From Chitinophaga pinensis (lineage in GTDB: Bacteria > Bacteroidota > Bacteroidia > NS11-12g > UBA9320), in NCBI GenBank assembly GCA_945890595.1, contig CAMDCQ010000003.1, positions 1 to 33,433 of the forward strand: a stretch of DNA of 33,433 nucleotides, read 5' to 3'. The position numbers and the translations under genes are program-made. The notes beneath the pieces were generated by a model. It made no database searches, was not told where the DNA came from, and was given only the letters and a program-made list of their open reading frames with translations. Below are positions 19,802 to 21,598 of this stretch, one piece after another (positions within the stretch are counted from its first letter, which is position 1; each line of letters starts with the position of its first letter).

Positions 19802-20851
19802 TCACTTAACATGCTCTGGCACTAGCTCAAAACGTTTAGCCATTACTGACAAATATCCGCGTTTCATATCTTCACTCAAAAAGCTACTGTGCACCTTACC
19901 CACCATCTCCTTGTGACAGTAGTAAAAATTATGCAACATGGCATCCAACACTTTAACAGGCATTTTTAAGGTATCAAAGGCTTGTACAAAGTCAGTGTAT
20001 TTCAAATTGCTCTTTTTTCCATTGAGTGTAAGGGCTAACTCTTCGGTATCTCCAGGGTTTACAAGGGCAGTATTTACTAAATCATAAGCGGGGGAAAGGC
20101 TATAAGCTCCTTGTTCGTTGGCTAGTAACGAAAAGTTTTTGAGGTGCATATCTGCATTGCCCGTAAAATAAGAGAGAAGTACCTGCTCCCAAAAATTGGT
20201 GACATCAAAAGCAGGGTTACTACTGTATTTCAATACCGTTTTAGCTACCTGTTCATGGCTGCCTTTGTACTTATCCTCTGTGAGTCGCTCTGTAAGTTGG
20301 CACATATCTTCCATGTGCAATTTCCCATGACGAGTGCGGTCCACACGTTTAGTTATATAACAGCATGTTCCATCGGTCAGTTTTACAAGACTGTGAGGCA
20401 CCGCTGCTATGCCACATACATCAGCTAGGTGCATAGTAAGGTCTTCTACCTCAGGCAATTCGGCATAGTGCTTTGTTGGTGGCTTAAGTATATAGTCGCC
20501 GTACAAGCCTACTATTGTGAGTTTTTTTACAGGATTTTTATCCTTTTTGTGGTGCAAACTCAAGCTTAGTTTGGGCTGTACGCCGGTTACTGCCATGTGG
20601 CTTTGTACTACTTTTTGGGCAAGTTGCTCCAAGTCGTTAAACTTATAATCGAGCGTAGGGGTGTACAATTGACCAAAAAAACGCTTGTTGCACGCTTGGT
20701 GAAAATCTGCACCGAACTCCGTCAACGGTTTATAGCAAAACAAACAATTACGCATAGGTTTGTCATTGCCTGGTTCCTGCACAGCAGACAGCATTTCTTT
20801 GGTTGTCTCCCGATAGCTATCGGGACGGTATGTCTTCTTGTAATTTTTCAT
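19802..20851 (-). CDS. HipA-like kinase (HipT-like toxin candidate) with N-terminal Cys/His motif
   Basis: GVQPKLSLSL (glycine-rich-loop region), LYGDYILKPP, GNADMHLKNFSLL (catalytic), SPAYDLVNT (metal-binding); N-terminal CLFCYKPLTEFGADFHQAC. Start uncertain: MRNCLFC further in is an alternative. Confidence 0.88.
   Translation of the reverse strand: MKNYKKTYRPDSYRETTKEMLSAVQEPGNDKPMRNCLFCYKPLTEFGADFHQACNKRFFGQLYTPTLDYKFNDLEQLAQKVVQSHMAVTGVQPKLSLSLHHKKDKNPVKKLTIVGLYGDYILKPPTKHYAELPEVEDLTMHLADVCGIAAVPHSLVKLTDGTCCYITKRVDRTRHGKLHMEDMCQLTERLTEDKYKGSHEQVAKTVLKYSSNPAFDVTNFWEQVLLSYFTGNADMHLKNFSLLANEQGAYSLSPAYDLVNTALVNPGDTEELALTLNGKKSNLKYTDFVQAFDTLKMPVKVLDAMLHNFYYCHKEMVGKVHSSFLSEDMKRGYLSVMAKRFELVPEHVK
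20808..20825. repeat. Perfect 18-bp palindrome TCCCGATAGCTATCGGGA within the 5' end of the hipT-like ORF
   Basis: Read directly; encodes RPDSYRE in the hipT frame. Confidence 0.9.
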
Positions 20852-20913: not shown

Positions 20914-21231
20914 TCAGGACTTTATCACACTCACCGCACCAATAGCGTCTTGGCAACAGGCTAGCAATAGGCCAAATCTGTCTCGCTCGTTTAGTTTCCA
21001 GTTTTGTTGTGCTATATCTAGCAGCCATCCTTCAGGTATTAGGCCATCAAAGAAAGGAAAGAGGACATTGCTTAGGAATGGTCTCTCTGACAGGGGTAAG
21101 GTTAGACTTACAGGCAACTCGTTGCATTGCAAATAAGCGTCATCGTATGTAAATGCATAACCATTTTCGTCCTCTGTTAAAACGCCTGCGAGTAGCGCAT
21201 TTCTATATACTAATGCACTTCTCATTGCCAT
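20914..21231 (-). CDS. HipA N-terminal-subdomain protein (HipS-like)
   Basis: 105 aa: ALVYRNALLAGVLTEDENGYAFTYDDAYL...PVSLTLPLSERPFLSNVLFPFFDGLIPEGWLLDIAQQNWKLNERDRFGLLLACCQDAIGAVSV matches the HipA N-terminal domain as a separate protein; overlaps hipB by 10 bp. Confidence 0.9.
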   Translation of the reverse strand: MAMRSALVYRNALLAGVLTEDENGYAFTYDDAYLQCNELPVSLTLPLSERPFLSNVLFPFFDGLIPEGWLLDIAQQNWKLNERDRFGLLLACCQDAIGAVSVIKS

Positions 21232-21452
21232 AATTTCGTTCTATCCATTTCAACTGGCCCAAGTTCGTGACCAAATAAACGAAGAACATCGTTCACCTTA
21301 TCCATGCGCAAACTGGCCTTACCTTGCTCTAGGTCTCTTACAAATCGTAATCCTACACCTGCTTTTTCTGATAATTCTAGTTGATTTATTTTGAGCGTCT
21401 TGCGACGTTGCTTCACAAATACAGCAAGTGACGTGAGTTCTTTTTCTTTCAT
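21222..21452 (-). CDS. HTH-type transcriptional regulator, HipB-like antitoxin candidate
   Basis: XRE HTH: LAVFVKQRRKTLKINQLELSEKAGVGLRFVRDLEQGKASLRMDKVNDVLRLFGHELG. Confidence 0.9.
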   Translation of the reverse strand: MKEKELTSLAVFVKQRRKTLKINQLELSEKAGVGLRFVRDLEQGKASLRMDKVNDVLRLFGHELGPVEMDRTKLWQ

Positions 21453-21598
21453 ATCTATACCTTTACTACTATATTACCGCAAATTTATTAATAATTTAAA
21501 CCTAATCGGGTATAAATTATATTTTTATTGATAATCTATACCTTAACTAGCATAGATATAGCGTTTTTAATACTATTTACACCTTATAAGGTATAAAT
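21453..21598 (-). promoter_or_regulatory. hipB promoter/operator region with four phased operator-like sites
   Basis: 24-bp sites at 21575-21598, 21534-21557, 21494-21517 and 21453-21476, with half-sites ATTTATACC/GGTATAAAT or GGTATAGAT and N6 spacer; -7-like TAAATTTG at 21487-21480. Confidence 0.7.

Follow-up and report, generated by a model that had tools for sequence, protein, structure and literature searches.

To understand how a predicted hipB-hipS-hipT operon might be controlled, we asked what the palindromic DNA directly in front of hipB is for, and which protein is likely to read it. The region in question is a 146-bp stretch (21453-21598) of the window, by which we mean the whole 33,433-nucleotide segment of DNA analysed here. 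The genes behind it lie on one strand in the order hipB-hipS-hipT:

hipB, 21222..21452, minus strand: 76 aa, Xre/Cro-type helix-turn-helix protein (PF01381; TIGR03070 couple_hipB)
hipS, 20914..21231, minus strand: 105 aa, predicted antitoxin, HipA N-subdomain-1-like (PF13657; TIGR03071)
hipT, 19802..20851, minus strand: 349 aa, predicted HipA_C kinase toxin (PF07804, E 4.7e-44)

The hipB and hipS genes overlap by 10 bp, and hipT begins 62 bp after hipS. HipB scored 78.8 bits against TIGR03070 (curated cut-off 71.65). HipS resembles the N-terminal subdomain of HipA, and HipT is without that subdomain, matching PF07804 only. In systems of the hipBST class HipT is toxic, HipS neutralises it, and TrpS is the target. 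The Gly-rich loop of HipT reads AVTGVQPK; its pre-loop motif is AVT, for which the literature gives Ser/Thr-aliphatic-Ser/Thr and lists S-aliphatic-S and several variants. With PADLOC, HipS and HipT matched candidate families only weakly. None of 18 congeneric genomes contained a match to this HipB, which suggests that the distribution of the operon is patchy or horizontal. A perfect 16-bp palindrome, CCCGATAGCTATCGGG, is also present at 20809-20824, in the 5' end of hipT, and has no other copy in the 2.19-Mb genome.

An earlier note had described four phased, operator-like 24-bp sites in the 146-bp stretch, and we found both their sequences and their coordinates to be exact on the minus strand. 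Motif scores are those of a model from which the window was held out:

Operator 1, 21575..21598, minus strand: ATTTATACC-TTATAA-GGTGTAAAT, strong, score 26.5
Operator 2, 21534..21557, minus strand: ATCTATGCT-AGTTAA-GGTATAGAT, weak left half, score 11.6
Operator 3, 21494..21517, minus strand: ATTTATACC-CGATTA-GGTTTAAAT, strong, score 23.2
Operator 4, 21453..21476, minus strand: TAATATAGT-AGTAAA-GGTATAGAT, weak left half, score 11.3

With centres at 21586.5, 21545.5, 21505.5 and 21464.5, the claimed gaps of 41, 40 and 41 bp were reproduced. Sites 1 and 3 are symmetric but for one position pair, as had been stated (8/9 half-site positions match). Sites 2 and 4 do have one strong half in common, GGTATAGAT, and a weaker one opposite: the left and right halves score -0.5 and 11.3 bits in operator 2, and -0.7 and 10.7 bits in operator 4. 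Since their left halves score about zero, we regard these two sites as half-degenerate. The note had also claimed that half-sites are kept between two units of about 81 bp and linkers are not; in our comparison 20/24 positions match in one pair of sites and 18/24 in the other, but just 4/17 in the 17-nt linkers. Operator 1 starts 8 bp past the stop codon of the upstream ORF and extends into an 18+18-bp inverted repeat (94%, near-perfect over 36 bp). Operator 4 adjoins the hipB ATG (21452), as proposed. The suggestion that AAAGG within it serves as a ribosome-binding site did not hold up, because Bacteroidetes mRNAs are without Shine-Dalgarno sequences (PMC6847099) and AGGTATA is the operator half-site itself. 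The window sites fit TATACC-N6-GGTATA and do not meet the E. coli HipBA code TATCC-N8-GGATA, in agreement with the note's view that the two codes differ.

Palindromes arise easily in A+T-rich intergenic DNA, which here is 22% G+C, and the window does hold several further 24-mers with 8/9 symmetry, so we asked how often such an array would appear by chance. To build the symmetric motif model we used the DNA upstream of 103 other hipB genes, leaving the window out. When the sequence was dinucleotide-shuffled 500 times, the mean score of the fourth-best site was -8.2 and no shuffle took it above 1.3, and the joint score of the real sites was never attained. Throughout the rest of the 33-kb window a single position scored at least 8. 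We also looked for a wider regulon by searching the 2.19-Mb genome for TATACC-N6-GGTATA with at most one mismatch: the matches were two members of the array, sites 1 and 3, and a single position within an ORF. A reversed-pattern control gave more matches than the real pattern, and because the count falls below that control we claim no wider regulon. A chance origin, already refuted by the conservation of the array over 104 loci, has a practically negligible probability.

Conservation was assessed in those 104 non-redundant loci, where 316 sites were found against 6.8 expected from shuffles, most loci carrying three or four. For loci other than the held-out window the motif model had been trained on the same loci, and the safeguards on these counts are a cross-validated assignment of operator codes and a repeat-spacing test that uses no motif. 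That motif-free direct-repeat test gave 405 versus 5.5 at a shift of 40 and 296 versus 6.3 at a shift of 41, with echoes at shifts 80-82 and 121. Among 307 adjacent spacings (both operator codes, A and B, defined below), 297 were 39-42 bp and eight were 49-52 bp, with none at 43-48 bp; the remaining two were 37 and 83 bp. The jump from ~40.5 to ~51 bp corresponds to one helical turn, and the same-face arrangement therefore appears to be kept; judged from these spacings, it is the same-face layout itself that appears to be conserved. Sites were concentrated in front of hipB: 22.5 kb of upstream DNA held 332, and 485 kb of flanking DNA held seven, of which most are themselves additional array members. 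The position of the last site relative to the ATG was conserved across loci, and third sites scored as high as the others. Where hosts are named they belong to Bacteroidota, apart from three loci of Chlorobiota, and across them the test that the note had proposed (half-site and ~41-bp spacing upstream of orthologous loci) came out in favour of the array. We regard the 146-bp stretch as a real local copy of a Bacteroidota-wide array of putative operators, placed four helical turns apart.

Two kinds of variation were seen among the loci. In L043 and L044 a second strong pair of operators, 41 bp apart, lies ~250-290 bp upstream of hipB, beyond the first pair. In L042, L048, L073 and L092 the array precedes a hipB gene with no hipS or hipT directly downstream, and solitary HipB regulators with the same operators thus seem to exist. 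The hipB genes of L088, L089, L091, L108, L117 and L126 are likewise without hipS/hipT directly downstream; the sites there are partly checked.

Next, we considered how the array is placed relative to the promoter, using these two features:

-7 promoter element, 21480..21487, minus strand: TAAATTTG, an exact match to the consensus TANNTTTG
Predicted transcription start, 21475, minus strand: placed from the G of the -7 element

The first was correctly noticed in the earlier reading, as a -7-like element between sites 3 and 4. The G of the -7 element is at -5 in F. johnsoniae (PMC6847099), which puts the predicted start at 21475, within operator 4. Operator 4 spans this start and the entire 23-nt leader to the ATG; operator 3 spans about -42 to -19, that is, the -33 promoter region; and operator 1 lies ~100-123 bp upstream of the start. 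The register between promoter and array is fixed in most relatives: 49 code-A loci have exactly 7.5 bp between the -7 G and the centre of the last operator, which places the predicted start within that operator. Five others, including the window, have 15.5 bp; relative to most orthologues the window's -7 box is shifted upstream by 8 bp. A search for a conserved -33 TTG upstream of the -7 box gave only a weak excess ~22 bp upstream, and we found no good -33 TTTG in the window. As predicted from sequence, the layout is that of a polymerase-blocking repressor. With the predicted transcription start lying under the last operator, autorepression is likely, and most likely HipB represses its own toxin-antitoxin operon.

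We then asked whether HipB itself could be the protein that binds these sites, which the note had offered as an inference. The HipB model (pLDDT 86.9) places the recognition helix at residues 35-43 (LRFVRDLEQ), including Arg36 and Arg39. Foldseek found 8ezt, HipB(Lp), as its best match (E 2e-3, probability 1.00), along with the HipB-operator complexes 4pu4 and 5k98, the latter a HipA-HipB-O2-O3 complex. Operator letters followed the helix. GLRFxR[DE] helices paired with TATACC-N6-GGTATA (code A) in 108/109 loci, with one tie, and ALTVxRK helices with TATATG-N6-CATATA (code B) in 37/37 loci, on the same grid of ~40 bp (five-fold cross-validated for both pairings). With the inner columns masked in site calling, GG was recovered in 82% of Arg36 half-sites and CA in 66% of those of the ALT class.

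When the helix columns were left out of the HipB tree, four changes of residue 36 and one A/B code switch were inferred. This main switch counts as a single phylogenetic event, and the 145/146 agreement does not amount to 145 independent events. All four inferred losses of Arg36 coincide with loss of the inner G: the inner letters are mostly AA/CA with R36N (L002, L003), mostly AG with R36H (L033), and CA in the ALT class, and the GIH/GLH clade has TATAC-N7-GTATA, with sites exactly 40 bp apart in L056. The masked test is uninformative for the GIH/GLH clade, because the half-sites there are one bp closer, so a direct search was used instead. These losses would be the more independent part of the covariation evidence, on a short, weak tree of few columns, with many unresolved forks. 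In a profile alignment Arg36 aligns with Gln29 of the 434 repressor, an established base-contacting residue, and Arg36 may well contact the inner G of the half-site. HipB as the binder of the sites is well supported by this covariation between recognition helix and operator letters, a stronger footing than the note could give it.

The HipT loop motif is AVT/TVT in most code-A loci and AVP/TVP in code-B loci; toxin loop and operator code follow the same clades. Helices of the form GxRFxS[DE]LENG (L014, L012, L016) come with other palindromes, of the TTACCG-N2-CGGTAA type, which in L014 lie ~50-51 bp apart beside a full-length HipA partner and are possibly a further code on a five-turn grid. An outgroup test with the hipBA-type HipB of L014 found no relatives at the cut-off, so these sites are anecdotal.

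How does the array compare with known systems? In E. coli K-12 hipBA, a HipB dimer binds each of several TATCC-N8-GGATA palindromes in front of the operon that encodes it; they differ from the window sites in half-site letters, in inner gap and in spacing, and HipA is one chain there. Closer is Legionella pneumophila, whose HipB binds three evenly spaced hipBST operators, O1-O3, with a motif of their own, as seen by gel shift (PMC10653801). As in the window, these are inverted repeats with six-nt arms upstream of hipB, their motif differs from that of HipBA, and some are asymmetric (PMC10653801). Unlike the mostly three or four sites at 40-41 bp from centre to centre in Bacteroidota, the three Legionella sites have 53-bp gaps, O1 lies 24 nt before hipB rather than adjoining its ATG, and the inner sequence, variable in the Bacteroidota array, is largely conserved (PMC10653801). 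The recognition helices differ too (GKTVIYD versus GLRFVRD in the window). If the Legionella operators are 18 nt long, with 53-bp gaps, their centres would be 71 bp apart, and 40.5, 51 and 71 bp would all be near whole turns at ~10.1 bp per turn. E. coli O127:H6 hipBST has the same three-gene order, and its HipB alone represses the promoter (PMC10627512, PMC6581861), being both required and sufficient for this (PMC10627512). The main text gives no operator sequence (PMC10627512, PMC6581861), and Legionella-type motifs are reported absent from that promoter. With the Legionella array and the O127 repression, this kind of arrangement is already known, and the uniqueness implied in the earlier note does not stand.

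Could something other than HipB on four operators explain the palindromes? Many Xre-type regulators use similar inverted repeats, and HipB binding here is deduced from sequence, so the sites could belong to some other host regulator with hipBST among its targets. Such a protein would have to use letters that track HipB's own recognition helix, at sites that are nearly absent elsewhere in the loci (seven in 485 kb), at chance level in the window's genome, and found also before hipB genes without hipS/hipT; we consider this quite improbable. Alternatively, the palindromes could act as RNA or DNA hairpins, operator 1 as a terminator for the upstream gene, where its inverted repeat directly follows the stop codon, or operator 4 in translational control, where it overlaps the start-codon context. 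However, transcription from the predicted start would leave operators 1-3 out of the hipBST mRNA, and RNA pairing leaves both the helical spacing and the covariation with HipB unexplained. This makes hairpins more improbable still, although operator 1 could conceivably have a side role in ending the upstream transcript.

A more serious alternative is that only the promoter operators are functional, and that operators 1 and 2 are relics of an 81-bp tandem duplication. The likeness of the window's two units, the dead left half of operator 2 and the many orthologues with three sites rather than four all fit such a history. Yet the sites are conserved between units whose linkers have diverged, third sites score as high as the others across loci, and the 39-42 bp spacing is held among loci with diverged linkers, shifts coming as a whole turn. 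We therefore think it unlikely that operators 1 and 2 are relics, though less so than the readings above.

Very probably, the 146-bp stretch is the hipBST autoregulatory region, with HipB dimers on four phased palindromes, the promoter blocked, and Arg36 reading the inner G. This explanation builds on what the sequences show: the sites exist, are conserved and regularly spaced, stand in register with the promoter and covary with HipB. A HipB dimer would sit on each of the four TATACC-N6-GGTATA-form palindromes, and the 40-41 bp layout would therefore bring all dimers to roughly the same side of the helix. Operator 4 lies over the predicted transcription start and the leader to the start codon, and operator 3 over -33, so that occupancy would block RNA polymerase. 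Operators 1 and 2 would continue the array upstream, where HipB-HipS-HipT complexes in contact with their neighbours would probably make occupancy higher. In each half-site, the inner G is probably read by Arg36 of the recognition helix. It is uncertain that all four sites would be filled, given left-half scores near zero in operators 2 and 4, and with these two half-degenerate, control of the window copy may be looser than in related loci. More tentatively, and with rather less than even confidence, we propose that the conserved functional element is the four-turn spacing and not the letters: HipB would have switched codes several times by way of a single recognition-helix position, Arg36, with adjacent HipB-HipS-HipT complexes still in contact along one DNA face, forming a cooperative scaffold that senses the HipS/HipT/HipB ratio.

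As far as the literature searched shows, the following are new: the operator codes of Bacteroidota, their four-turn grid, the register with the promoter and the way helix and operator covary. For hipBST operons across Bacteroidota this amounts to a code for the operators, a rule for their spacing and a promoter prediction, none of which we found in that literature. The array could be used for finding hipB genes and calling their true starts. The natural variants would serve as ready matched repressor-operator pairs for asking how specificity can depend on a single residue and what phased arrays do for toxin-antitoxin repressors.
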